DNA of 53,016 nt, taken from a virus. The notes beneath the pieces were generated by a model. That model was not told the DNA's origin. It saw nothing but the letters and a program-made list of their open reading frames with translations, and searched no databases. Where the stretch lies: positions 1-53,016 of IMG/VR virus record IMGVR_UViG_3300025894_000011. The stretch is one strand, 5' to 3'. This document shows positions 4,574-50,134 of the stretch, piece by piece; the first letter of the stretch is position 1; each line of letters opens with the position of its first letter. The position numbers and the translations under genes were made by a program.

Positions 4574-5005
4574 TTAAGAATTTATTTGTTCGTATGAATC
4601 TTTTGAATCACCCTCCTTTTTAAAAGTTTCTCCAATTATATAAGAGCCTACAAATGGTGTTAATGCAGCAAAGTAAGCAGCTGCACCCATAAGATCAGCA
4701 TTTTTAACAATTACCCAAACTCCTATAATAGTCCAAAGTGCAATTGTAATATACATAAGATTTTCTCTCTTGCTGTTTTTACCTTTCATAAAAATAGAAC
4801 TATTATTGCTAGGTCTCATGCTTTCACCGAACACATATGATGCAACAAAACCTGTTAACGAGATAAAATAACCAGCCAATTGAGTAAAGTTAGTATCAAA
4901 ATATGTAGCAGTAATACCAACAGCTACCCATAAAAAGACTACTAAGTAAGTAATACACTCACGCTTCGATTCACAACAGCGCTTAAGTAAGGATTTCATA
5001 TACAA
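4574..5005 (-). CDS. Small membrane protein with internal duplication
   Basis: A 143-residue protein with about four hydrophobic segments arranged as two similar halves. Half one (about 17-65) and half two (about 82-128) both run from an aromatic-rich helix (VVFLWVAVGI, ITIALWTIIGVW) through AGYF/AAYFA into a helix ending SYVFGESMR or SYIIGETFK. A charged linker separates them. The function is unknown; a holin-like or superinfection-related membrane role is conceivable but unsupported. Met3 (base 4999) is an alternative start. A late-type motif lies immediately upstream, suggesting co-expression with virion genes. Confidence 0.7.
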   Translation of the reverse strand: MYMKSLLKRCCESKRECITYLVVFLWVAVGITATYFDTNFTQLAGYFISLTGFVASYVFGESMRPSNNSSIFMKGKNSKRENLMYITIALWTIIGVWVIVKNADLMGAAAYFAALTPFVGSYIIGETFKKEGDSKDSYEQINS

Positions 5006-9109: not shown

Positions 9110-9898
9110 ATGAGAAAGGGCCGACGAATTAGAAAGGTGGTAAATATATCCGTACCAGCTGAATCTTCTAAGAACATTAAGACTAATGTAAAGAGAGGTA
9201 AAATTATAAACACTAATTCTCACCATAAAGTACCTACTAAAGTAAATCCTAATCCAGTTAGACTAAAGACACCACTAAAGAAAGATTTAAAATATCATAC
9301 TATTACACCGTTGTGGGCTGGGGAAACTGTTTACATTATTGGTGGAGGCCCTTCACTAAAAGGATTTAAGTGGAATTTATTATCTAATAAAAAAACTATA
9401 GCTATTAATAAAGCTATAAAATATTATAATAACCCAACAGCTTTATATTGGACAGATTCTAGAGTATTCAGATGGCTTAGAAAAGAAATAATGTCTTATA
9501 GTGGTTTGAAGTATACTATTACACCTAATAAAGATCATAACGAAAGTATTAAACTTTTAAAAAGAGGAAGTAAGAATGGATTGTCAAAACAAAAAGATGA
9601 AATAGCACACGGTGGAAATAGTGGTTATGCTGCAATTAATTTAGCAATTCATTTAGGTGCTAAAAGAATTATCTTATTAGGATATGATATGGGTAATGTA
9701 GGAAAGGAAAGTCACTTCCACGATGGCTATCCAGTAAATACTACAGGTGTTAATATTTATAAAGATCAATTTATACCTGCGTTTGATTTGCTTAAACGTG
9801 ATCTTAATGGAAGTGGAATAGAAATTTTAAATGCATGCCCATCTAGTAATTTAAATGCATTTAAAAAAATAACTATAGAAGAAGCTTTACGCTTTTGA
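9110..9898 (+). CDS. DUF115 / MptE-like protein, the only rightward gene
   Basis: A 262-residue protein. After a basic N-terminal extension of about 60 residues it has a Rossmann-like nucleotide-binding pattern: VYIIGGGPSLKGF near 75-87, TIAINKAIKYY near 95 and TALYWTDSRVF near 110. A second signature AHGGNSGYAAINLAIHLGAKRIILLGYDMG spans roughly 167-197 (two adjoining parts: HGGNSGYAAINLA and HLGAKRIILLGYD). This resembles DUF115/MptE-like domains, which are related to 6-hydroxymethylpterin pyrophosphokinase and occur with sugar-transfer genes. The substrate is unknown. It is divergent from gp44 and its 3' end overlaps the converging zinc-ribbon gene by 12 bases. Confidence 0.7.
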   Translation: MRKGRRIRKVVNISVPAESSKNIKTNVKRGKIINTNSHHKVPTKVNPNPVRLKTPLKKDLKYHTITPLWAGETVYIIGGGPSLKGFKWNLLSNKKTIAINKAIKYYNNPTALYWTDSRVFRWLRKEIMSYSGLKYTITPNKDHNESIKLLKRGSKNGLSKQKDEIAHGGNSGYAAINLAIHLGAKRIILLGYDMGNVGKESHFHDGYPVNTTGVNIYKDQFIPAFDLLKRDLNGSGIEILNACPSSNLNAFKKITIEEALRF

Positions 9899-17962: not shown

Positions 17963-18328
17963 TTATATTGTATAAATACCGTCGCTATCAGCGCTACCAT
18001 TAATTGATACAGTACCAGCGTATTTCCTAGGATGTAATTTATTCCAACCTTTTGCAAATCCTCTTTTACATATTTCAGTAAAATAAGCGAAGGCATTAGT
18101 TGATTTTTCTGGATTAAAGTTTCTCCAATATTTAAATAAGTCCATATAAGCAGATGCTATACAGTCTTGTCTATCGTCTGGATTTGCGTATGATAATTTC
18201 CTAGAACATTTGTCTGCTAATAACATTAAAAATTCTAATGCCTTTGGGGTGAGCTCATCTTGTTCTTTGGATAATATTATTTGTTCTAAAAGATCTCTAT
18301 TATTTAGATAATTTCTTTTTCTTGCCAT
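17963..18328 (-). CDS. 55: Late-transcription sigma factor (T4 gp55-like)
   Basis: A reduced sigma factor that would direct host RNA polymerase to late promoters together with the sliding clamp. The 121-residue protein contains a sigma region 2-like stretch, DCIASAYMDLFKYWRNFNP near residues 59-77 and NAFAYFTEICKRGFAKGWNKL near 82-102 (quoted as NAFAYFTEIC plus KRGFAKGWNKL). This mirrors T4 gp55. It is shorter than T4 gp55 (185), with no region 4. A strong terminator separates it from the gene upstream and an early/middle-type motif precedes it, as expected for a regulator made before late genes. Confidence 0.9.
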   Translation of the reverse strand: MARKRNYLNNRDLLEQIILSKEQDELTPKALEFLMLLADKCSRKLSYANPDDRQDCIASAYMDLFKYWRNFNPEKSTNAFAYFTEICKRGFAKGWNKLHPRKYAGTVSINGSADSDGIYTI

Positions 18329-18342
18329 TTATAAATGTTTTA

Positions 18343-18357
18343 TTTATTATTATATAC
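18343..18357 (-). promoter_or_regulatory. Candidate early/middle-type promoter upstream of gp55
   Basis: The minus strand reads GTATATAATAATAAA, 15 bases before the gp55 ATG and directly after a terminator. It matches the TATATAATAATAAA motif of the clamp, uvsX and HAD genes. Confidence 0.5.
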
Positions 18358-29884: not shown

Positions 29885-31003
29885 TTAAAATAAACTTGTA
29901 GTATAAATCAAGTTTCTATTGAATCCCTTAAATCCCATAGCAGTAACAACTCTGTTTATAGGATCTAATATTGTTTTTTCGAATTGTCGATCGTAATCAA
30001 TCTTAGGCGCGAATTCATAAGGATAATCTCCAGGTGCATATGCAAATACATCACAGGAATTATCTTCAGAAAAATACATTTTACATTTTTCCCCGTTTCC
30101 TAATGGTTGGTATTTACCTTTTTTGCCTGAATTGTTTAATAAGTAATTATGATAACCTGCAGATCTTACGCCGATTGGGCATTTTGATGCGATCTCAAAT
30201 TGTTCATAATCATTTACAATATACTTTTGATAATTATTAACCTTTCTTGAAAAACTGATTTGATCAACATTTGCTAATCTAAATTGTCTTTTAACATCCT
30301 TAAGCAAAGATGCAAATGCTCCCATATCTAATTCACTTACAGAAAATATGTAAGTTAATAGTTCTTTTAATTTTTCTCTTGCAAAAATAGGAGTAGATGA
30401 CTGAATGATTTCAAATCCTTTTGAACTAATTTTAGAAAGATCATCATAGTGAATATCCGGATCCTTCCAAACTATATTCTGCATATACTTTTTCTTTGCC
30501 AACCATATTGCATTTTTAGCAATACTTTCTAATTCAAAAGATAAAAAGTTTTCTGCATTATTATCGTCTGCATATTTTTGTAGAATCTTTTCTATATAAC
30601 CATTTAACCTAACCTTATAAAGCTTAAGTATAAATTCTTTTTCATCACCGTTCCAGCCTTCCGACTTTTGAATTACTTCATCAAATTTAACATACACTGA
30701 ATCTGTATCAATATAAATACCTACTGGTTTTTCAATTTTACCTGTTACAGTAATACCCATAGCAGCGTGAGCTGGTAGATCTTTATGCCAAAACTCTTTA
30801 AAATACTTATTAACTAATTGTTCGGTATATAAAATTGCATCTTTACCTTGGAGTGTAATAGTTTCAGCAATATCAACATTAAAGAAATAAAAATAAGGAT
30901 TACCAAATGCGCCGTAAATAGAGTTAAGCATTAACTTAACTGCCTGTTCATAATTATAAAACTTAGATGCCTCTTCGTTAATTTTTTGTAATTCCTCTGT
31001 CAT
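29885..31003 (-). CDS. 43: DNA polymerase, C-terminal half (split T4 gp43)
   Basis: A 372-residue fragment of a family B polymerase. It begins in the second fingers helix and carries motif B KLMLNSIYGAFGN (23-35), motif C YIDTDSVYV (97-105) with both catalytic Asp residues, the AKKKY motif near 169-173, the thumb, and a hydrophobic C-terminus (IYTTSLF) suited to clamp binding. The exonuclease domain and motif A are absent. They are found in the separate gene at 46245..47651, about 15 kb upstream on the same strand. It has its own ATG and promoter-like element, so it is a real gene and not debris. The two products must associate to make an active enzyme. Confidence 0.95.
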   Translation of the reverse strand: MTEELQKINEEASKFYNYEQAVKLMLNSIYGAFGNPYFYFFNVDIAETITLQGKDAILYTEQLVNKYFKEFWHKDLPAHAAMGITVTGKIEKPVGIYIDTDSVYVKFDEVIQKSEGWNGDEKEFILKLYKVRLNGYIEKILQKYADDNNAENFLSFELESIAKNAIWLAKKKYMQNIVWKDPDIHYDDLSKISSKGFEIIQSSTPIFAREKLKELLTYIFSVSELDMGAFASLLKDVKRQFRLANVDQISFSRKVNNYQKYIVNDYEQFEIASKCPIGVRSAGYHNYLLNNSGKKGKYQPLGNGEKCKMYFSEDNSCDVFAYAPGDYPYEFAPKIDYDRQFEKTILDPINRVVTAMGFKGFNRNLIYTTSLF

Positions 31004-34153: not shown

Positions 34154-35176
34154 TTATATTTTTACTTTTTCAATTTCTAAATCTTCCATAAAAGTTAAAG
34201 GGTCAATTGTACCTTGATTAATTTCTTCTTCAAGATAAACAATAGTTTCTTTTATAGTATCTCTTATATCTTTTTTAGGTTCCCATCCCATCGATTTAGC
34301 TTTGGAGATATCCCCTCTGATATTTAAAGCCTCACCTGCAATCGGATCGTAATGATCAAACACAGGTTCACCAACTCCCATAATATCACCAATCATATTT
34401 TTAAGATCCATTAGATTTGTCATTTTACCGGTTCCTAAATTAAAGGTTTGGTTTGCGGTATCTTCATTTTCCATACAAAGAATGTGGAATGCATTAACAT
34501 CAGATACATCAATATAATCTCTTGCCTTCATATAATCACCAAACACTATAGGATTATGATTACCTTTAATTCTTAAAATAAATCCAGCGAATACAGGAGG
34601 TATGGTTCTATTATAGTCTTGAAGTGGCCCAGCAACATTAAAGTATCTCAATGCAGTATAATTTAAACCTTTAGTTCTCTGGTATGATTCTGCTAATAAG
34701 GCAAGGCATGCTTTAGTTGTAGAATAAATTGTAGTAGGATCAGATTGATTCTCGTTAAACCCTTCTTTAGGCATTTCACAATTTTCATATACAGCAGAAG
34801 TTTCACTAAAGATAATTCTTTTTACATCTGCCTTTACACAACCATTCATTACATTAATACTTCCTAAGATATTATTATCTACAGCTTCGTATGGATCTTC
34901 ATGACAGTCATAAATAGAAACCAAGCCAGCGAAGTGATAAACATAATCAGGTGCAAAATCCTGAATAATGTTTTCTACATATTGATTTCTAATATCTACT
35001 TTATGAAAATTTTCAATTTGATCATGGACTTTAGGTATATAAGTACCGTGTTCCATATTATCGATCACTGCAATACATTTAGGATTATGTCCTCTATTTA
35101 ATAAATCATTGATAAAATTTGTACCAACGAACCCAGCACCACCGGTGACTAGGATTTTTGTTTCAGAATTATACAT
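34154..35176 (-). CDS. NAD-dependent sugar-nucleotide epimerase (GalE-like)
   Basis: A 340-residue extended SDR enzyme. The NAD-binding motif is TGGAGFVGTNF near 11-21, followed by VYHFAGLVSIYD near 83, FSETSAVYE near 124 and the catalytic Tyr-x-x-x-Lys YSTTKA near 151. RYFNVAGPLQDYNRT near 178 is typical of UDP-hexose 4-epimerases and dehydratases. Most likely it interconverts UDP-sugars for the neighbouring transferases. It overlaps the GT-B gene by eight bases. Confidence 0.88.
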   Translation of the reverse strand: MYNSETKILVTGGAGFVGTNFINDLLNRGHNPKCIAVIDNMEHGTYIPKVHDQIENFHKVDIRNQYVENIIQDFAPDYVYHFAGLVSIYDCHEDPYEAVDNNILGSINVMNGCVKADVKRIIFSETSAVYENCEMPKEGFNENQSDPTTIYSTTKACLALLAESYQRTKGLNYTALRYFNVAGPLQDYNRTIPPVFAGFILRIKGNHNPIVFGDYMKARDYIDVSDVNAFHILCMENEDTANQTFNLGTGKMTNLMDLKNMIGDIMGVGEPVFDHYDPIAGEALNIRGDISKAKSMGWEPKKDIRDTIKETIVYLEEEINQGTIDPLTFMEDLEIEKVKI

Positions 35177-36434
35177 TTACGGTTTCAGTTTTAGTTACTC
35201 TTTCATAAGATTCCCAGATCTTGTTATCTACATGCTCTCCAGTATAATAAGAATCCTTAAGATACTTTTCTTGTAGGTTATAAAATAATTTCTTATAATG
35301 CTCCGGGTTTGCATTTAAGAATTCAATTTTCTTTTTTAAATCTTCTGCTGATTTACATCTAATAAAATGACCTTCAGGGAATACATTAAAGTCAGTATCG
35401 TAAGATGGGTGTAAGAAAGGTATAATACCATAGTGTAGCATTTCAGCATACTTAGAGGTTACCATACCTTCTTTAATAGGTACACAGAATGTATATTTAG
35501 TACCGAGTAATTCATCGGTCATTGTTTCGATTCTAGTTTCTCCTTTAAACCATTTAGGATACTTTTCTTTAATCTCATCATCCCATTTACCATAGATATC
35601 AGTTTCTATTTCTTGATCAACAATGTATTCTTTTACTGGATCCCAACGATCCATTCCACCTGAACCTTTACCTTGATTCTGTAGCATCATAAATGAATTG
35701 GTCTTTTTCATTTTAAATAATTCATCAGTATCATATCTTTTCTTATCTAAAAGAAATACTGTTTCAATACCTGAATATTCATATGTAGATGTAATTGTTT
35801 TAACATCTCTCAGTGGTGGATTACAGAAATATTGTTCTTCTTTAGTAAATGTATTTTGTGCTAAGTAATAGGTTGGTCTATTATTTATACTCCAATCCTT
35901 ACACGCAAGAACATATCGGTTATCAACAAGTAAACCTACAATAGGAACTTTCTTTTCCAATTCATTCATCGCTTTAATAATTGGAGCTGCATAATACTTA
36001 AAGAAATCCAACGATTTAACTTGACCAGTACCATCCTTCTTGTTGATATACTCTGGAATATTAACAGTACTTGTTGGACCAGTATAAAAGAAAATAAAAT
36101 CTAAATCTAAACCTTGAATAATTTCAACAGTTTCATCAGTAGACTTTCTCTCTTTCATAGTAGAATGAAATTCTTTAATATTATTAGGAACTATAGGTTC
36201 ATCTGTTTGCGGTGGGCCGAATAAAGAATTTACTTTAGGTTTTTGTTTTGCTCTAAACTTACCTAAATCATTTGGGCTTAATAGCCAATATTCGATATTA
36301 GGATTTCTGTTTGCAATTGAACAAATTAATTGCTTAGGTTCACAATCACCACCGATTGCGCTCCAACTGTTTTCATTAAACTTTATGGCTTTACCTAATT
36401 TAAAAAAACCAATCTTTTTTACATTCTCTTTCAT
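35169..36434 (-). CDS. GT-B-type glycosyltransferase-like protein
   Basis: A 421-residue protein with a GT-B-like C-terminal half. DELLGTKYTFCVPIKEGMVTSKYAEMLHYGIIPFL near 308-342 (seen as FCVPIKEGMVTSKYAEML and YGIIPFL) is followed by GHFIRCKSAEDLKKKIEFL near 355. This is the pattern of conserved donor-binding Glu followed by an end helix common to GT-B enzymes, including phage DNA glucosyltransferases. The N-terminus (KKIGFFKLGKAIKF) starts a Rossmann-like domain. Donor and acceptor are unknown. Adjacency to a DNA methyltransferase makes DNA one candidate acceptor, by inference only. Confidence 0.6.
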   Translation of the reverse strand: MKENVKKIGFFKLGKAIKFNENSWSAIGGDCEPKQLICSIANRNPNIEYWLLSPNDLGKFRAKQKPKVNSLFGPPQTDEPIVPNNIKEFHSTMKERKSTDETVEIIQGLDLDFIFFYTGPTSTVNIPEYINKKDGTGQVKSLDFFKYYAAPIIKAMNELEKKVPIVGLLVDNRYVLACKDWSINNRPTYYLAQNTFTKEEQYFCNPPLRDVKTITSTYEYSGIETVFLLDKKRYDTDELFKMKKTNSFMMLQNQGKGSGGMDRWDPVKEYIVDQEIETDIYGKWDDEIKEKYPKWFKGETRIETMTDELLGTKYTFCVPIKEGMVTSKYAEMLHYGIIPFLHPSYDTDFNVFPEGHFIRCKSAEDLKKKIEFLNANPEHYKKLFYNLQEKYLKDSYYTGEHVDNKIWESYERVTKTETVNV

Positions 36435-36435
36435 A

Positions 36436-37143
36436 TTAACAATTTTGAATAATATCTTCTATTACTTGTTTATCTTGTTCGTATGTTAAATCATACCAAC
36501 ATATATTTAATTCTTCAAATTTTAAATTATCCATCGAGTTTATAAGATGAGTAATTTCATATTCATTTCTGTTTGATAATTTAATACTACTTAAGTTATC
36601 AAATGCCTCTTTACCAAATATCATATATCCGCAAAAATATCTACCGCTTACTACACCATGCGGTTTTTCAATAACCACATCTTCTAGGATAGTAGCAAGT
36701 TGTAAATTTCTTGCTCTAGTTTCATAATCCTTATAAGTAACAACAGTGTTATTAGGATCATGGTATTCTAAACCAATATTACCTTGATAATAATTGTCAC
36801 CAAAGAGACATAAGAAAGGTTCATAAAATTTACCTTCCCATGCCTTAATTGCAGCGCCTGGTCCATATTCATCATCCTTCTGAAATTCATAACAAATGTT
36901 TATCTTTTCTTTATACTTTGATAAACTTTCAATAATAGGATGAGATAATTTTGTATTTCTATTTTTAAAAAAGAAGTCAGATTTACTTATAGTAACATAT
37001 GCATCCTCTATTCCATTCTCAATACAAAATTCAATACAGTACTGAATTGTTGATTTTCCTAAAATTGGATCTATAAGTTTATTTGATCCATACCTAGTAG
37101 ACCTCCCGGCTGCTAAGATAATTGCTTTTCTTACTCTACTCAT
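36436..37143 (-). CDS. Sugar-phosphate nucleotidylyltransferase
   Basis: A 235-residue enzyme of the RmlA/GlmU-like NTP-transferase fold. The signature is AIILAAGRSTRYGSNKLIDP near 8-27, with the pyrophosphorylase Gly-rich loop and following Lys. CLFGDNYYQ near 112 carries the metal-binding Asp and IEKPHGVVSGRYFCGYMIFG near 153 is the product-binding region. It would activate a sugar phosphate (or choline-type alcohol) with CTP, UTP or GTP. Its end overlaps the gene downstream minimally, and its ATG overlaps the kinase gene by four bases. Confidence 0.85.
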   Translation of the reverse strand: MSRVRKAIILAAGRSTRYGSNKLIDPILGKSTIQYCIEFCIENGIEDAYVTISKSDFFFKNRNTKLSHPIIESLSKYKEKINICYEFQKDDEYGPGAAIKAWEGKFYEPFLCLFGDNYYQGNIGLEYHDPNNTVVTYKDYETRARNLQLATILEDVVIEKPHGVVSGRYFCGYMIFGKEAFDNLSSIKLSNRNEYEITHLINSMDNLKFEELNICWYDLTYEQDKQVIEDIIQNC

Positions 37144-37886
37144 TTGCTATATTTAATTTCTAATTCATCGAATAATTCATGCCCTTTCTTAAGGAACATA
37201 CCTGCCAATTCATATCTTTCATTTAATTCAAAAAATGGAACAGCTCCTAATAAGTGAACTGCTAAAAAGAATTTTAATTGGTATTCGTCATACCATTCAT
37301 ACATTATGTTTTCTGCTTCCCTACAGAACTTAAGATATTTAGAATTCCTTTCATTGTATATATGGGCCTCATATTTCATTACAAAAGATTGCATCAGTTT
37401 TCCATAGTCATAATAATTCTGCTCTTCAGTACCTCGTGGATCAATAAAAATAAAATCCTTATCATATAAGATATTACTTACTGTTAAATCACCATGAACA
37501 AACCCCCAGCCTGACGATGCATCTAATTCACCTTCATAAGTATAACCTGTTCTACCTTCTAATTTATCTAAATAAGATCTTGTATCTACATCAGTACCGT
37601 AACCATCAAAATCATTTACAATATGAATAAGATCATCTAATTGGTCAATTGATTTAATTAAAGGCTGTTCACAGATTTTATCATACCATGTTGGGTATTT
37701 TTTCATTTCAAATGAAGTATCTGATATAGGATTAATCTTTATAAAATTCGGATGGGTACAATTTTTTAACCAATCCATTTGCTGCTTAAACTTTATAGGA
37801 TAAACCCCAGCTTCTTTAATAACTTTGTTATCTTGAAGATATACCCTATCTCCACTATTTCCTACTAAAACTTTACCAGTATGCAT
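37140..37886 (-). CDS. APH/choline-kinase-like small-molecule kinase
   Basis: A 248-residue protein with the aminoglycoside-phosphotransferase kinase core. The catalytic loop is GFVHGDLTVSNILY near 127-140 (HGDxxxxN) and the metal site is FIFIDPRGTEEQNYYDYGK near 145-163 (IDP in place of DFG). The N-terminal lobe is reduced. Such enzymes phosphorylate sugars, choline or ethanolamine. Being sandwiched between a HAD phosphatase and a nucleotidylyltransferase suggests three successive steps on one substrate. Confidence 0.75.
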   Translation of the reverse strand: MHTGKVLVGNSGDRVYLQDNKVIKEAGVYPIKFKQQMDWLKNCTHPNFIKINPISDTSFEMKKYPTWYDKICEQPLIKSIDQLDDLIHIVNDFDGYGTDVDTRSYLDKLEGRTGYTYEGELDASSGWGFVHGDLTVSNILYDKDFIFIDPRGTEEQNYYDYGKLMQSFVMKYEAHIYNERNSKYLKFCREAENIMYEWYDEYQLKFFLAVHLLGAVPFFELNERYELAGMFLKKGHELFDELEIKYSK

Positions 37887-38416
37887 TTCATTTTGTTTTT
37901 AAGTGCGAATGTTGAATCTACTTCTGAATCACCAACCATTAAAAAATCAGCTGGATTATATTTAGGAAATGTTTTAAAAATTAAATCTGCCATATCTGAG
38001 TGTGGCTTTTTATTTAAAACATCATCCCTCGTTACAATCATATCAAATAATTCATTACTTATATTATGATAAGCCATAATTCTATCTACATTTTCTCTAG
38101 ATGAATTTGATGCTATAATAACTTTTTCAAATTGAGAATTTTTAATTATCCACAAAAGTAATTGATTTATTTTAGTCTTATGAAGATTCTTTGAAAATAT
38201 TTCTCTTTTGTAATCTTGTGCTAATTGGGACTCAGCTTCAGTTAATTGATATTTCTTTAAAAGAACATCCATTCCGTAATTAATATCAGACATTATTGTT
38301 TCAATAGGTATATCCCTATTCAATACTCTTTCTATAGCAAGTTTCCATGAATTTGCATGAGTATCTATAGTTGAAACTAAAGTATCATCAAAATCTAATA
38401 TTAAGCAACGTTCCAT
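37865..38416 (-). CDS. HAD-superfamily phosphatase
   Basis: A 183-residue hydrolase with all HAD motifs. Motif I is LILDFDDTLVST near 5-16 with nucleophile Asp, motif II is IIASNSSRENV near 100, the conserved Lys is at KKPHSD near 135 and motif IV is LMVGDSEVDSTFA near 158-170. A helical cap follows motif I, as in phosphoglycolate phosphatase or beta-phosphoglucomutase. The substrate is unknown but probably a sugar phosphate made by the adjoining kinase pathway. It is the first gene after an early/middle-type promoter. Confidence 0.85.
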   Translation of the reverse strand: MERCLILDFDDTLVSTIDTHANSWKLAIERVLNRDIPIETIMSDINYGMDVLLKKYQLTEAESQLAQDYKREIFSKNLHKTKINQLLLWIIKNSQFEKVIIASNSSRENVDRIMAYHNISNELFDMIVTRDDVLNKKPHSDMADLIFKTFPKYNPADFLMVGDSEVDSTFALKNKMKCILVKF

Positions 38417-38429
38417 ATAATTTAACTGA

Positions 38430-38444
38430 TTTATTATTATATAG
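38430..38444 (-). promoter_or_regulatory. Candidate early/middle-type promoter of the sugar/methyltransferase operon
   Basis: The minus strand reads CTATATAATAATAAA, 13 bases before the HAD gene ATG. Six further genes down to 31883 follow without a recognisable terminator. Confidence 0.5.
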
Positions 38445-38488
38445 AAGTTTTTAAAAAAGTTTCAAGTATAACCGGGCATTATACAAAC

Positions 38489-38522
38489 AAAAAAGACCAT
38501 CTAATTAAAGATAGTCTTTTTT
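38489..38522 (-). terminator. Bidirectional terminator after the Hc1-like gene
   Basis: AAAAAAGAC-C-ATCT pairs with AGAT-A-GTCTTTTTT in a 14-position stem with one mismatch and a six-base loop, with T-runs in both directions. It lies 18 bases past the Hc1-like stop codon. Confidence 0.75.
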
Positions 38523-38540
38523 AAAAAAGATTATGTATGA

Positions 38541-38717
38541 TTACATATTGTTCTTAGTCTCTTGGACGTGTAATCTTAGTTCTTGTGCTAGATTTTTAAC
38601 TTCTTGCATTGATTTTCTAATTCTTACGGCGGCTGCCTTATTTCCCTTTACATAGAATTTATCTACATCTTCACTTACTGACTCGATAAGAGCCTTGATT
38701 TCTTCAAATTTTTCCAT
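38541..38717 (-). CDS. Histone H1-like DNA-binding protein (Hc1 family)
   Basis: A 58-residue protein read by hand from ATG at 38717 to TAA at 38541. It contains FEEIKALIESVSEDVDKFY, then KGNKAAAVRIRKSMQEVKNLA. The Lys-Gly-Asn-Lys-Ala-Ala core and following Arg-x-Arg-Lys-x-Met-Gln-Glu are characteristic of the short Hc1/histone H1-like proteins found in most Bacteroidetes. These bind DNA non-specifically and compact nucleoids. It has its own late-type promoter motif and terminator, so it is a single-gene transcript. It may coat phage DNA or compete with host chromatin proteins. Confidence 0.85.
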   Translation of the reverse strand: MEKFEEIKALIESVSEDVDKFYVKGNKAAAVRIRKSMQEVKNLAQELRLHVQETKNNM

Positions 38718-38736
38718 AATAGTTATTTTTTATTGT

Positions 38737-38750
38737 TTTTATATATATTC
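38737..38750 (-). promoter_or_regulatory. Candidate late-type promoter upstream of the Hc1-like gene
   Basis: The minus strand reads GAATATATATAAAA, about 20 bases before the ATG at 38717. It belongs with the structural-gene motif, not the early/middle type. Confidence 0.45.
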
Positions 38751-38751
38751 A

Positions 38752-39648
38752 TTAGAATTTACCTTTTCTGTTTCTATAGAAACTTGTTAGTTTTGGTACG
38801 TACATATACTTATGACCTTTATCTTTTATAACCTTCATCATTCTGTTAAACATGTCAACATCAGCTGGGTTAGTTTTTTCTTTAGATATTTTAGGTTCGG
38901 TATTACATTGCGCGTCGGCATCACGATATCTTAAATCACCACACATAGAAGGTCTCCATGAAACTGCAGAGTGACTAACATCACCATGAGTATAACCAAG
39001 ATTATTTGGTTCTATTAGATTAGTATGCCTTTCGTCCCTAGGTTGGTACATATATTTCTTAGAGCTATTTGTTGCGTCTATCTTTTTACGGCTTCTTGTG
39101 AATACATATGCCAATTCAGGATATTGTGTGTATGCTTTTGCTAAAAGCTCTAAGTGATTAGGAGTCCACTTATCATCATGGTCAATTCTAACAATATAAT
39201 CACACCCATCTGACTTAGCCATTTGCAAACCTTTATTCATTGCACCGCAACCTGCAGTATATCTAAATTGTTGCTTTGTAAAACCTTTATCTCTTTCACC
39301 AGGTGATGACAGGTTATGATATTTTAATTTACCCTTTGGGATAATACTATTCATTACTTCCTTTATCTCTTCATCACCATCATATTTATCACCTACTAAG
39401 TAAACCGTATAATTATCATACTTTTGATTTTTTATTGATGTTAAAGAATCTTTTAATATACTAGGTGTAGTCATGTGATTTTGTCTAGTTGTCTGAGCAC
39501 CACCATCAGATATTTTATGAGTAGGCATTACTATACCGAATTTTATTTTGTTATCAATTTTATTAGAAAGATTTTTCTCCAACAAAATTTCAAAATTTTT
39601 AGAACCTATATAAGATTCTAATAATCTATACTCTTCAAAATTTATCAT
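38752..39648 (-). CDS. Family 2 glycosyltransferase
   Basis: A 298-residue GT-A enzyme. After about 35 residues comes FGIVMPTHKISDGG, then LTSIKNQKYDNYTVYLVGDKYD near 70-91 (quoted as SIKNQKYDNYTVYLVGD) and DYIVRIDHDDKWTPNHLELL near 150-169. The last holds the DxD-type HDD site of GT2. AYVFTRSRKK and a C-terminal MYVPKLTSFYRNRK complete it. It probably transfers a sugar onto a glycan or protein. It overlaps the aminotransferase gene by four bases. Confidence 0.87.
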   Translation of the reverse strand: MINFEEYRLLESYIGSKNFEILLEKNLSNKIDNKIKFGIVMPTHKISDGGAQTTRQNHMTTPSILKDSLTSIKNQKYDNYTVYLVGDKYDGDEEIKEVMNSIIPKGKLKYHNLSSPGERDKGFTKQQFRYTAGCGAMNKGLQMAKSDGCDYIVRIDHDDKWTPNHLELLAKAYTQYPELAYVFTRSRKKIDATNSSKKYMYQPRDERHTNLIEPNNLGYTHGDVSHSAVSWRPSMCGDLRYRDADAQCNTEPKISKEKTNPADVDMFNRMMKVIKDKGHKYMYVPKLTSFYRNRKGKF

Positions 39649-40760
39649 TTATTAAAAAATGTTTTTACTGACTTTATTACTCTTTTTAAATCCGAGTCAG
39701 TCATACTAGAACCGGATGGTAAACATATACCTTGTAAAAATAATAAAGAGCTATTTCCATTTATATATTTTCTATATCCTTTTAGAACTGGCTGTTCATG
39801 CATTGGCTTCCATAATCTTCTTGCTTCAATATTATCTTTTTCTAAATGTGATATAAGATCTTCTGGTCTGTCTTCTCCTTTTAATAAAGCACAAGTTAAC
39901 CACATGTTTGATCTATCTGTGTTTCTTTCGTTCTGAAATGAATAAAAATACTTACTTAATTCTTTTCTATAAACTTTATTAATTTCTCTAGTTCTATTAA
40001 TTCTTTCTTCGATAACTTCCATTTGACCAATCCCAATAGCGGCTAAAATGTTACTCATTCTATAATTATAACCTATTTCTGTGTGGTGATAAAACGGCAT
40101 AGTATCTTTTGCTTGAGTAGATAAGAACTTCATTCTTTCAGCCTTCTTCTTATCATCTGTTATGATTACTCCACCACCAGAGGTAGATAAGAGTTTATTT
40201 CCGTTAAAAGAATAAATGCCAATAGAGCCAAAGGTTCCAGTATGTTTATTATTAAATTTAGAACCAATACTTTCTGCTGCGTCTTCAATAATAGGTATGT
40301 CATATTCATCTGATAATTTTTTAATTGCATCCATATCACAAGGTACCCCAAAAATATGAACTGGTATTATAGCCTTAGGTTTTTTACCTAAAGCCGTTGA
40401 ATTAAGTATTGCAGTTTCTAATAAAACTGGATCTAAATTCCAAGTAGTTTCTTCTGAATCTACAAAAATAGGCTCTGCTCCACAATAAATAATAGGGTTA
40501 ACTGTTCCTATAAAAGTAAGAGAAGAACAGATAACATAATCACCCTCACTTACATTTAATGCCTTTAATGCTAAATGAATACCAGCAGTACCTGATGAAA
40601 CTGCTACTGCATGTTTTGCTCCAGTGTATTCTTTAACCTTTTCTTCAAACATATTAAGCTGAGGTCCAATCGGAGCAATCCAATTATCATCAAAAGCTTT
40701 TTTAATGTAATCTAATTCTTTGCCTGACATATGAGGCGGTGATAAGTAAATTTTTTTCAT
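39645..40760 (-). CDS. DegT/DnrJ/EryC1 sugar aminotransferase (PglE-like)
   Basis: A 371-residue PLP enzyme that converts a keto sugar nucleotide to an amino sugar. SSGTAGIHLALKAL near 55-68 binds the cofactor phosphate, and IIEDAAESIGSKFN near 157-170 carries Asp160. SFNGNKLLSTSGGGVI near 184-199 has the Schiff-base Lys189, and RMSNILAAIGIGQME near 237 follows. Next to the dehydratase and acetyltransferase genes, it corresponds to PglE in diacetylbacillosamine synthesis or a related UDP-amino-sugar route. It overlaps both neighbours by four bases. Confidence 0.92.
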   Translation of the reverse strand: MKKIYLSPPHMSGKELDYIKKAFDDNWIAPIGPQLNMFEEKVKEYTGAKHAVAVSSGTAGIHLALKALNVSEGDYVICSSLTFIGTVNPIIYCGAEPIFVDSEETTWNLDPVLLETAILNSTALGKKPKAIIPVHIFGVPCDMDAIKKLSDEYDIPIIEDAAESIGSKFNNKHTGTFGSIGIYSFNGNKLLSTSGGGVIITDDKKKAERMKFLSTQAKDTMPFYHHTEIGYNYRMSNILAAIGIGQMEVIEERINRTREINKVYRKELSKYFYSFQNERNTDRSNMWLTCALLKGEDRPEDLISHLEKDNIEARRLWKPMHEQPVLKGYRKYINGNSSLLFLQGICLPSGSSMTDSDLKRVIKSVKTFFNK

Positions 40761-41299
40761 ATTATTTTTCTTCTAGCAGGATTTCCGTATGCAGTTGAAT
40801 TATCAGGAATGTTTTTAGTCACTACTGACCCTGCACCTATCATACAATTTTTTCCAATTTTTATATAAGGTAAGATTACCGACCCTGCTCCAATATAACT
40901 ACCTTCGCCAATTTCTACACCACCACATAATGTTGCATTAGGGCCAATAAAAGTAAAATCTTCTAATATACAATCATGGTCAATAGATGCTGCTGTATTA
41001 ACTATACAATGCCTACCTATTTTAGCGTTTATTTGTATTACTGCTCCTTGTAATATTTGGCTACCTTCACCAATATCATAATTGCATATAATTGCAGAAT
41101 CAGATATAACTGTTACATATTCTATTTCACCTAGCACTTCTTCAGCTATTCTTTTTCTGGATTTATTATTACCTATTGCTATGACCCACGGGCCTTGTTG
41201 TAAATCAAAATCCTCATCATTATAAAAATTTACTTGACTACTACCTAAAACAGAATTAACTACTTTTGCGTGACCACCTTTTCCGTAAATATTAATCAT
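40757..41299 (-). CDS. Sugar O/N-acetyltransferase with hexapeptide repeats (PglD/NeuD-like)
   Basis: From the ATG at 41299 it has 180 residues. The first in-frame ATG (41326) would lie deep in the upstream gene, and PglD-type proteins begin with the short Rossmann strand seen here (MINIYGKGGHAKVV). The N-terminal domain binds the UDP-sugar and the C-terminal left-handed beta-helix binds acetyl-CoA. The catalytic-type His is in ASIDHDCILEDF, and VEIGEGSYIGAGSVILPYI and GAGSVVTKNIPDNSTAYGNPA follow. It would acetylate the new amino group after the aminotransferase. Confidence 0.9.
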   Translation of the reverse strand: MINIYGKGGHAKVVNSVLGSSQVNFYNDEDFDLQQGPWVIAIGNNKSRKRIAEEVLGEIEYVTVISDSAIICNYDIGEGSQILQGAVIQINAKIGRHCIVNTAASIDHDCILEDFTFIGPNATLCGGVEIGEGSYIGAGSVILPYIKIGKNCMIGAGSVVTKNIPDNSTAYGNPARRKII

Positions 41300-42353
41300 T
41301 ACTTTCTCTTTTAAATTCTGGAACAATACTTTTCATTAATAAAAGTATCTTGTAAAAATCATTTGATCTTATTTTAGATAACTTTTCTATTTTAGGTATT
41401 AACGTTTTAAAATCATATTCTTCGTGGTTTAATTTCATAATGTTATGATCCTCAGTAGGAATCATATTCTCACCATTACATAATAATTCTTCATATAATT
41501 TTTCACCTGGTCTTAAGCCTATATACTCTATTTCAGCATTACTATTAAAATGCTTAATTAAATTTTTTGCTAAATCAGTAATGCTTACAGGTTCACCCAT
41601 ATCAAATAAAAACACTTCACCACCATCTCCTAGTACACTTGCTTGTAATACTAATTGGCATGCCTCAGGTATAGTCATAAAGTATCTTATAACTTCCGTG
41701 TGTGTAACACTTACCGGACCGCCTCTTTTAATTTGCTTTACAAATGTTGGAATTACTGAACCTTCAGATCCTAGTACATTACCAAATCTTGTAACAATAA
41801 AGTTAGTTGCTGATTTTGTTTCTAAGAATTGAGTATATAATTCTGCTATTCTTTTAGTTGCACCCATAACATTTGTTGGGTTAACTGCCTTGTCAGTAGA
41901 TACCATTATAAATTTATCTACTTCATTCATATATGAAATATTTGAGACGTTCATTGTACCTAATACATTTGTTTTGATTGCCTCAACAGGATTTGCCTCC
42001 ATCATAGGTACATGTTTATATGCAGCTGCATGAAAAACTATATTAGGTTTAAATGAATCAAAAACTTCTTCTAACCTATACTTATCTCTAACATCACCTA
42101 TTACATATTTAATATGAGAATTTGGATTTGATCTACTTATCTCTTGTTCTAAATGAAACATAGATGCTTCTGCATTATCAAATACAGTTACAGTAGATGC
42201 ATTAAACTTAACAAGCTGTCTTACTATTTCACTACCTATTGAACCTGCACCACCTGTAACAAGTATTCTTTTGCCTTTAATAAAATCTTTAATTAATTTA
42301 AGATCGGTTATTATAGGTTTACGATTAAGTAATTTATTGTAGTCTAGACTCAT
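41292..42353 (-). CDS. UDP-sugar 4,6-dehydratase (PglF/CapD-like)
   Basis: A 353-residue SDR enzyme equivalent to the soluble domain of PglF/FlaA1-type dehydratases. The NAD motif is LVTGGAGSIGSEIVRQL near 31-47, followed by YVIGDVRDK near 90 and AAAYKHVPMMEANP near 108. STDKAVNPTNVMGATKR near 150-166 has Met in place of the SDR Tyr, as in the PglF/CapD group. PVSVTHTEVIRYFMTIPEAC near 230 is also typical. The transmembrane domain of PglF is absent. It would make the 4-keto-6-deoxy intermediate used by the next two genes. Confidence 0.92.
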   Translation of the reverse strand: MSLDYNKLLNRKPIITDLKLIKDFIKGKRILVTGGAGSIGSEIVRQLVKFNASTVTVFDNAEASMFHLEQEISRSNPNSHIKYVIGDVRDKYRLEEVFDSFKPNIVFHAAAYKHVPMMEANPVEAIKTNVLGTMNVSNISYMNEVDKFIMVSTDKAVNPTNVMGATKRIAELYTQFLETKSATNFIVTRFGNVLGSEGSVIPTFVKQIKRGGPVSVTHTEVIRYFMTIPEACQLVLQASVLGDGGEVFLFDMGEPVSITDLAKNLIKHFNSNAEIEYIGLRPGEKLYEELLCNGENMIPTEDHNIMKLNHEEYDFKTLIPKIEKLSKIRSNDFYKILLLMKSIVPEFKRESND

Positions 42354-43096
42354 ATATTATTTATTTGAGTAACTAACCAGTCTAATTCTACTTGACTTTC
42401 GGAATCTGAAATAGCATTATCTGGATCTGGGTGAGTTTCAATAAATGAACCATCATATTCAAAAATCTTAGCTGCTTTAGCATATTGTTTTGCTAATTTA
42501 CGACTACCGCCAGTTATACCTTCACCTGCCATTTGTGTTGAGTGGGTACAATCTAAAATAACTTTATCTGCAAATTCTTTCATTACATCAACTCCTCTAA
42601 AATCTACAATAAGTCTATCATATCCAAAATTAGATCCTCGCTCGGTTACCCATACTTCACACTTTGGATCTACTTCTTTTATTTTGGTAACTGCATGTTT
42701 CATTGCATCAGCAGATAACCATTGACCTTTCTTAATGTTAATGACATTAAAGTTTTTTGCACATTCAACTAAAAGATCAGTTTGCCGACATAAGAATGCC
42801 GGTATTTGAATAACATCAACTACTTCAGATAAAGGTAATGCTTGGTCAGGTTCATGAATGTCAGTTATGATTTTAATATCAGGATAATAGTGTTTAACCG
42901 TTCTCATAATATCCATTCCTTCCTCTAACCCAGGGCCTCTATCAGAATGTATGGAAGTTCTATTTGCTTTATCAAAAGATCCTTTTAAGTACCAGTTCTT
43001 ATCTCCCATACAAGCATATAATGTTTTAGCTACTTCTAAAAAGTTATCCTCATTTTCAATACTACAAGGGCCAAGTATATAAGTATAATTTTTCAT
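42350..43096 (-). CDS. kdsA: 3-deoxy-D-manno-octulosonate-8-phosphate synthase (KdsA)
   Basis: It condenses phosphoenolpyruvate with arabinose 5-phosphate to give Kdo-8-phosphate. The 248-residue enzyme has GPCSIEN near 9-15, where the Cys marks the metal-dependent class II form. It continues with KGSFDKANRTSIHSDRGPGLE near 39-58 (quoted as KGSFDKANRTSIHS and RGPGLE), DIHEPDQA near 80, VIQIPAFLCRQTDLL near 94, ERGSNFGYDRLIVDF near 151 and a C-terminal ETHPDPDNA. KdsB, KdsC and KdsD equivalents are not recognised here, so the product may feed host Kdo synthesis or an unusual ulosonate. It overlaps the dehydratase gene by four bases. Confidence 0.93.
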   Translation of the reverse strand: MKNYTYILGPCSIENEDNFLEVAKTLYACMGDKNWYLKGSFDKANRTSIHSDRGPGLEEGMDIMRTVKHYYPDIKIITDIHEPDQALPLSEVVDVIQIPAFLCRQTDLLVECAKNFNVINIKKGQWLSADAMKHAVTKIKEVDPKCEVWVTERGSNFGYDRLIVDFRGVDVMKEFADKVILDCTHSTQMAGEGITGGSRKLAKQYAKAAKIFEYDGSFIETHPDPDNAISDSESQVELDWLVTQINNI

Positions 43097-46244: not shown

Positions 46245-47651
46245 TTAAGACTTTTTTAGTTCTTGTTCCAAATCGTATGCTTTTTGTTGCAGTCTAAAAG
46301 ATTCTTTCTTATATTCTTTTCGCTGATCATATAACCTTGTAAGAACATCCTTTAGTATAGATCTTTCAGTATCATACACAGCACCAGTAACCGACACAAT
46401 ATTATTCTCACCTCTTTCAGCGCTTCTTTTTTCAGGTGATACTTTTTTCTTAAAGCTTTCTGGCGAAACATTTAACTGTCTCATTATAGAAGGATATAGA
46501 GAAGCAAAATCAAATGCAGCTACTGCGTTATGCATACCAGTTATTGGCTCTTTTACGAAGGCTCCTTCGAACTGCTCTCTTTTAGATGGTGGTGCTTTAG
46601 GATCTTTTGCCATTACTAAATTTCTGGTTAGAAATTCTCTTGCCAATAGTGCTTCAGTAATTGCGACTGGTGATGCTGCTTTAAAAATACTAATTTGAGT
46701 CATATGAGCAATAGTTAATGCAATATCCATTGTCTTAATCTTTTGATGAATAAGATAAACTAATGCTGTATCAATTACATTATAGAAAACATATTTAGGA
46801 TAATCCTTTTCATACATATCTTGGATAGTACCTTCATATTTAACTTTCTTAATTCCTACTACGGCTTCTCCTACAGTATCTAATTTAAAGTCTTCTTTAA
46901 TATCAACGGTTCTATCCCACTTTGCATAAATATCTAAATAATCCATTACACCTACGTGGCAAGGAAATTCATCTCTTCCAAAATTTCTACCTATAGGTGA
47001 AGCCGAACCAATATCAACACCAAGCTTTTTACACCTATTAATAATATACTGCCAATCAAATTTTATATAATTCCAACCTGTCATCATTGGGAATTTCTGA
47101 ACAAATGACATCATAAAAGTTGACATCATATCATATTCAGATTTAAAACATTTAAAAGTAAATGAAAAATCATCATCGATATCTTTAAAGTGTTCGTCGA
47201 TTTGTTTTTGTATTTTAGTTTGAGTTTGATTATCTAAATCTTTAGTTGCTAAAACAATACATTGTTTTTCTGGAGTAACAATACAAATTGTAGTAACTGG
47301 GTTTGGTGCTTTACTTGGTTCAGGGAAAGAATCAGTTACCTCAACTTCAATATCTACAAAATAAGTTCTTGGAAAATGATAACCAAAAATTAATTCCCTA
47401 TCAGAAAAAGATAGTTGATCCATGTATTCAATAATCCTATACTTATTTAACCACCTAGATCTTGCCTTTTTGACTGGGCGACCATCCCAGTTTTTTATTT
47501 TAGAGTCAGCATTAGGATCCGATTCATCACATACTTCCCAATTAAACATATCTTCTGGTTTAAGATCATAAGTCTTAAATCTTGTTTTACCGTCAAGATT
47601 AAAATATGATACCCATAGTTGGCGATCTTCTTGTGTAATGTCTAAAAGCAT
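46245..47651 (-). CDS. 43: DNA polymerase, N-terminal half (split T4 gp43)
   Basis: A 468-residue fragment of a family B polymerase. Exo I is FVDIEVEV (Asp100, Glu102), Exo II is NYIKFDWQYI (Asp199) and Exo III is YNVIDTAL (Asp294). Together they form an intact proofreading site. Palm motif A is DFASLYPSIM (381-390) with the first catalytic Asp. The ORF ends in the first fingers helix (LYDQRKEYKKESFRLQQKAY) and stops cleanly at TAA. Motifs B and C are encoded 15 kb away at 29885..31003. The two halves sum to 840 residues against 898 for T4 gp43. No intein motifs are present at the break. Confidence 0.95.
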   Translation of the reverse strand: MLLDITQEDRQLWVSYFNLDGKTRFKTYDLKPEDMFNWEVCDESDPNADSKIKNWDGRPVKKARSRWLNKYRIIEYMDQLSFSDRELIFGYHFPRTYFVDIEVEVTDSFPEPSKAPNPVTTICIVTPEKQCIVLATKDLDNQTQTKIQKQIDEHFKDIDDDFSFTFKCFKSEYDMMSTFMMSFVQKFPMMTGWNYIKFDWQYIINRCKKLGVDIGSASPIGRNFGRDEFPCHVGVMDYLDIYAKWDRTVDIKEDFKLDTVGEAVVGIKKVKYEGTIQDMYEKDYPKYVFYNVIDTALVYLIHQKIKTMDIALTIAHMTQISIFKAASPVAITEALLAREFLTRNLVMAKDPKAPPSKREQFEGAFVKEPITGMHNAVAAFDFASLYPSIMRQLNVSPESFKKKVSPEKRSAERGENNIVSVTGAVYDTERSILKDVLTRLYDQRKEYKKESFRLQQKAYDLEQELKKS

Positions 47652-49561: not shown

Positions 49562-50134
49562 TTAACCTTTCATAGTTTTAATTGCGTTACGGATATTTCC
49601 ATTTACTGCTTGGACAGTTAATCCCAACTCTTTAGCAATTTCAGAAGTTTTCATTTCATGGCAACCAATACCAAATTTCATTTTGATGATTTCCTGTTGC
49701 TTAGGTTTTAGTTTGGTAAGTAAACCTGCAATAGTATGATTCAGATGTGATTCATTATGAGCAGATTCAATATGAGGTTGATATGAACCTTGGTAAGTAG
49801 CATCCAATACAGATACTTTAGGAGCCTCCTCGGTAAGGTGGGCTTTATGAGCAGGTACGCGGATGGTACGGCTTTTGTTGTTTAGTGCTTGGCGGATTGT
49901 TGCCTTGATCCACCATGATGCGTGTGTGGAGAATTTTGCACCGTTTGATTTTGCAGGGTTCCATTTGTCTCTTGCTTGGCATAATCCAATTGTACCTTCG
50001 TGGATTAGATCCTCTAATGATAGTCCCATACCCTGGTATTTTTTGGCAAGGTGGACGACCAATCTTAGGTTACCTAATACTGGGTCTTTTGATGTTTTGT
50101 AGTCTCCGATTTGTTTGTAGAATGTGTTATCCAT
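49562..50134 (-). CDS. Sigma-70-like RNA polymerase sigma factor
   Basis: A 190-residue sigma with regions 2 to 4. Region 2 has NLRLVVHLAKKYQGMGLSLE near 22-41, DLIHEGTIGLCQARDKWNP near 42-60 and KFSTHASWWIKATIRQALN near 67-85, then SRTIRVPAHK (start of region 3). Region 4 has LKPKQQEIIKMKFGIG near 142 and a helix-turn-helix KTSEIAKELGLTVQAVNGNI near 161-180. The usual Arg-x-Arg-Gln-Ile recognition helix is altered. Region 1.1 is absent. Codons for the first two thirds are much richer in G/C than the surroundings, pointing to recent acquisition, perhaps from a host group 2/3 sigma. It is separate from the gp55-like factor. Confidence 0.93.
   Translation of the reverse strand: MDNTFYKQIGDYKTSKDPVLGNLRLVVHLAKKYQGMGLSLEDLIHEGTIGLCQARDKWNPAKSNGAKFSTHASWWIKATIRQALNNKSRTIRVPAHKAHLTEEAPKVSVLDATYQGSYQPHIESAHNESHLNHTIAGLLTKLKPKQQEIIKMKFGIGCHEMKTSEIAKELGLTVQAVNGNIRNAIKTMKG

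Follow-up and report, generated by a model that had tools for sequence, protein, structure and literature searches.

A short Hc1-family gene with its own promoter and terminator in a clade of T4-like phages

Hc1 proteins in bacteria and phages

Chlamydial Hc1 binds DNA through its lysine-rich C-terminal region, and its N-terminal region dimerises (PMC2848022). Bacteroidota encode a short form of the family (PF07432), most members of which end at the N-terminal region, one (L154) having a Lys/Ala-rich extension; we found no literature on the function or DNA binding of these short bacterial proteins. Among phages, Hc1 (PF07432) was reported in 2025 from jumbo "moraphages", aquatic phages with predicted Bacteroidota hosts, and a packaging role was suggested (PMC12619734).

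The window analyzed here, the whole 53,016-base virus record (31% G+C), comes from a T4-like phage. Its T4-like genes encode a major head protein, head maturation protease, portal, DnaB helicase, SbcC/D, clamp loader and UvsX, as well as a tail sheath stabiliser, a DNA end protector and a late sigma factor. Among named records, the closest matches to the portal are from uncultured jumbo phages (36-63% identity), Prevotella Lak phages (35%) and Sphingomonas phage PAU (32%). The gene of interest lies between two sugar-related neighbors:

38541..38717, minus strand: Hc1-family coding sequence (P0001), ATG to TAA, 58 aa, pN/pS 0.18
38752..39648, minus strand: family 2 glycosyltransferase (PF00535), upstream neighbor and last gene of a sugar cassette
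37865..38416, minus strand: HAD hydrolase (PF13419), downstream neighbor and first gene of a second sugar/nucleotidyl cassette

The translated product (MEKFEEIKALIESVSEDVDKFYVKGNKAAAVRIRKSMQEVKNLAQELRLHVQETKNNM) matches the whole Pfam PF07432 profile (positions 1-57 of 57, E 2.6e-23, 82.1 bits against a curated cut-off of 23.5 bits) and carries the conserved core of that family, KF-(8)-[AG]-x-R-x-RK. Across 45 non-redundant members, F21, R32, R34, R48 and K55 are invariant. The initial annotation had identified the protein as a short Hc1 of the Bacteroidetes type and had pointed to a profile search as the way to unseat that assignment; the search returned Hc1, with no unrelated family above cut-off, and the assignment stands. 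EzrA and DegQ appeared as weak Pfam matches below cut-off and were set aside, and PHROGs contains no Hc1-type family. The gene is under purifying selection (pS 0.61, pN 0.11, mean ratio 0.18 over 26 distinct genes), with pN/pS falling to 0.02-0.08 among the closest Hc1 genes. This selection, together with the profile match and the synteny described below, rules out a chance open reading frame.

The phage protein resembles its Bacteroidota counterparts in length (58-63 aa across the 80 loci examined), in its full-profile match and in its invariant residues, with identities of up to 66%, but differs from them at residues 30 and 31 (A-V in the phage clade, G-T in bacteria) and in having a phage promoter and terminator. 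Like the moraphage gene, it is a phage-encoded PF07432 member with a Bacteroidota-type host, though the moraphages, compared here by description rather than by sequence, are a different phage lineage (PMC12619734). Phage-encoded PF07432 and the speculation about packaging were thus already known (PMC12619734); what we add is a second, T4-like clade with Hc1 as a core gene, support from promoter class for late transcription, the short protein's lack of a tail and its conserved stripe, and the synteny, terminator and selection of the gene.

With chlamydial HctA/Hc1, homology extends over the N-terminal third, and late expression, assigned in the phage from its promoter class, is common to both. 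The NCBIfam HctA model gives 21 bits at positions 7-39 of 121, below the at least 100 bits and about 121 residues that define an HctA equivalog. The phage protein ends at residue 58, lacks the lysine-rich C-terminal DNA-binding domain and is nearly neutral (net charge about +0.6, pI 8.0); it is the counterpart of the chlamydial dimerisation domain. To eukaryotic linker histone H1 it is related in name only, via chlamydial Hc1: Hc1 alone exceeded the Pfam cut-off, leaving the linker-histone domain unmatched, and the Lys-rich tail is missing. The "histone H1-like" name derives from a chlamydial part that short proteins do not have, so DNA condensation should not be assumed for the many Bacteroidota and phage proteins that bear it.

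A one-gene transcription unit of the late class

We examined the sequences on either side of Hc1 for transcription signals and found the following features:

38742..38750, minus strand: late-class promoter motif GAATATATA, 33 bp 5′ of the Hc1 ATG
38488..38523, minus strand: intrinsic terminator, 15-pair stem plus T-run
38430..38441, minus strand: middle/replication-class motif TATAATAATAAA of the HAD hydrolase gene
17963..18328, minus strand: gp55-like late sigma factor (phrog_234 late sigma factor, E 8.7e-16), with a middle-class motif in front at 18354

All five copies of GAATATATA in the window lie 21-33 bp before minus-strand starts, those of Hc1, the portal, a 654-aa protein and the genes at 4574 and 1970. 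As this count alone is not significant (5 versus 2.45), the weight of the motif comes from its position before starts and from its pattern across genomes. In distinct upstream regions of relatives, the late motif AATATATA precedes the portal in 19/19 and Hc1 in 20/21 cases, but UvsX in 0/43; a different motif class stands before UvsX in 33 of those 43 regions. Within the window, TATAWWAATAAA occurs nine times against 0.9 expected, always 13-27 bp before a start, and the genes behind it include those for the clamp loader, DnaB and UvsX. The Hc1 motif is therefore one common to structural and not to replication genes, in a phage that encodes a late sigma factor, which places Hc1 in a late (gp55-class) unit. 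The gp55-like factor probably recognizes the GAATATATA class. The window also encodes, at 49562-50134 (minus), another phage sigma factor that has regions 2 and 4. A scan for sigma-70 consensus sites gave 25 hits versus 34.5 in shuffled sequence and was set aside.

Downstream, the terminator hairpin folds at -17.5 kcal/mol, compared with -7.8 kcal/mol for shuffles (z -4.15). A hairpin and T-run follow Hc1 in 24 of 25 distinct related loci, a count that takes the best hairpin per locus without a shuffle comparison, and the stem sequences differ. With GAATATATA on its 5′ side and the terminator on its 3′ side, Hc1 forms a one-gene transcription unit, separate from the HAD hydrolase gene, which has its own TATAATAATAAA. 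These results bear out the earlier annotation of a dedicated promoter of the structural-gene type and a dedicated terminator. In divergent relatives, the Hc1 upstream motif is not of the late class but is TAAATTTG or a TATAAAATAAAA-like sequence; late timing is thus not universal and may differ in those phages.

Distribution, synteny and origin

Hc1 relatives were found in 40 IMG/VR viral loci at 46-100% identity. By contrast, a tblastn search of 50,697 phage records matched only three uncultured jumbo phages, indicating that T4, as originally claimed, and the isolate records are without Hc1. Wherever viral loci cover the syntenic site the gene is present (23/23; two other loci are truncated), and it accompanies UvsX in 33 of 41 UvsX-bearing records. 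Of the eight exceptions, four stop within about 8 kb upstream of UvsX, and the other four are distant (UvsX 57-58%). By these counts, Hc1 belongs to the core genes of a clade of T4-like Bacteroidota phages, in which it has long been resident. A nucleoid-type protein of Bacteroidota is here no occasional stray but a fixed gene, in a fixed place and with a late promoter, across a widespread group of phages.

In divergent relatives, the gene order is nrdA-Hc1-31082-polymerase-uvsX, with no sugar genes. Since Hc1 occupies this DNA-metabolism block from nrdA to uvsX even there, it is linked to the DNA genes; membership of a sugar cassette was rejected because relatives without the cassette keep Hc1. 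The simplest reading of the gene orders is that the flanking sugar cassettes would have arrived later. Between nrdA and gene 31082, where the divergent phages have Hc1 alone, the window holds a large sugar/nucleotidyl cassette (34154-43096, minus) encoding a DegT aminotransferase, epimerases, a DAHP synthase family protein, an NTP transferase, a glycosyltransferase and the HAD protein. A sialyltransferase-like gene (9110-9898, plus) is among the very few plus-strand genes. DNA polymerase matches are split between 46245-47651 and 29885-31003 (both minus), about 15 kb apart, one protein corresponding to the N-terminal and the other to the C-terminal half of phrog_262.

The family is present in 68 of the 118 Bacteroidota genomes sampled; of 14 control genomes, only the Bacteroides one has it. 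The comparison with Bacteroidetes Hc1 proteins suggested at the outset yielded a tree in which 23 phage proteins group together (95/89), although this tree rests on 58 columns and is weak. Residues 30/31 read AV in 23/23 phage proteins of the window's clade versus GT in 86/86 distinct bacterial proteins aligned. The separate clade and this signature indicate an old phage lineage of its own rather than a recent capture of a host gene by the window's clade. For the same reason, the use of Hc1 as a pointer to the host phylum is indirect, the phage protein being no fresh host copy; a Bacteroidota-type host remains a fair call.

Loci L037-L040, which belong to an unrelated group of phages, carry distant Hc1 relatives whose leaders are Shine-Dalgarno-like and whose C-termini are extended by a short basic stretch; in the tree, they fall among cellular proteins on a long branch.

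Predicted structure and possible roles

AlphaFold2 predicts a two-helix hairpin (helices 2-22 and 27-57, pLDDT 95.9). Along helix 2, whose mean charge is about +5 over the 45 non-redundant members, runs a stripe with a seven-residue period, R34-Q38-K41-Q45-R48-Q52-K55, each position being 93-100% conserved; R32 and K35 are additional. This stripe is the part of the surface likeliest to make contact, whether with nucleic acid or with another subunit, and it offers a direct, cheap handle on the real activity of the family. Searches by sequence gave no relatives of solved structure, and the hairpin model had no specific fold match (none with E below 0.001).

We tentatively favor a reading in which the product is an architectural protein of the late stage that oligomerises, associates with DNA and possibly mixes with host Hc1. 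Expressed late from a single-gene unit under the phage's late-sigma promoter, the hairpin would most likely oligomerise via its helices, while the basic/Gln stripe of helix 2 probably contacts nucleic acid, though it could equally be a protein-protein interface. The protein would then act on replicated DNA, presumably that of the phage rather than the host, at the packaging stage, and may form mixed oligomers with host Hc1. Consistent with this are the family match, selection, the late promoter shared with the portal, the late sigma factor, core-gene status, the position in the DNA-metabolism block, the hairpin model, the stripe and the dimerising chlamydial counterpart domain. Counting against it are the overall charge near zero, the absence of a lysine-rich tail and the non-late motif in divergent relatives. 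The original suggestion that the protein coats or condenses DNA thus survives in part: the late-type promoter fits it, but a near-neutral protein without a Lys-rich DNA-binding tail gives no ground for assuming coating or condensation. A bolder version, in which we place little confidence, is that Hc1 without its tail forms a self-sufficient module of two helices that binds nucleic acid by its Arg/Lys-Gln ladder, the late version in the T4-like clade organising the genome before packaging, alone or with the host protein.

A rather unlikely alternative is that the target is host Hc1 itself, mixed dimers displacing or disabling the host nucleoid protein or freeing host DNA, so that the gene would serve take-over instead of packaging. 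The same short protein occurs in the host phylum (68/118 genomes), the two have the dimerisation region in common, and the most conserved positions are identical in phage and host proteins. A late promoter, as found in the window's clade, would however be late for take-over, and a mere poison need not keep the full basic stripe that the phage lineage has retained. Packaging inside the virion, as an internal protein accompanying the DNA, would suit a small protein with a basic-faced helix and a promoter class common to head genes; it is doubtful, since in the simplest arrangements the gene sits in the DNA-metabolism block and not among head genes. Least probable is that Hc1 is no DNA protein and serves instead as a helical adaptor or in assembly, for instance small-terminase-like, with the stripe as an inter-subunit hydrogen-bond network: its near-neutral charge and top solved-structure look-alikes (designed homo-oligomers with hydrogen-bond networks and the T4-like small terminase gp16, E 0.4-1.6, not significant) would fit, but these matches do not exceed what generic helical hairpins give, and the family is mainly cellular and spread through Bacteroidota.

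Among viral structures, the best match to the Hc1 model was BFVD A0A1V0SJN2, a Klosneuvirus protein of 131 aa (33% identity, E 0.006), a hint that a giant virus infecting eukaryotes may possess a domain resembling Hc1.
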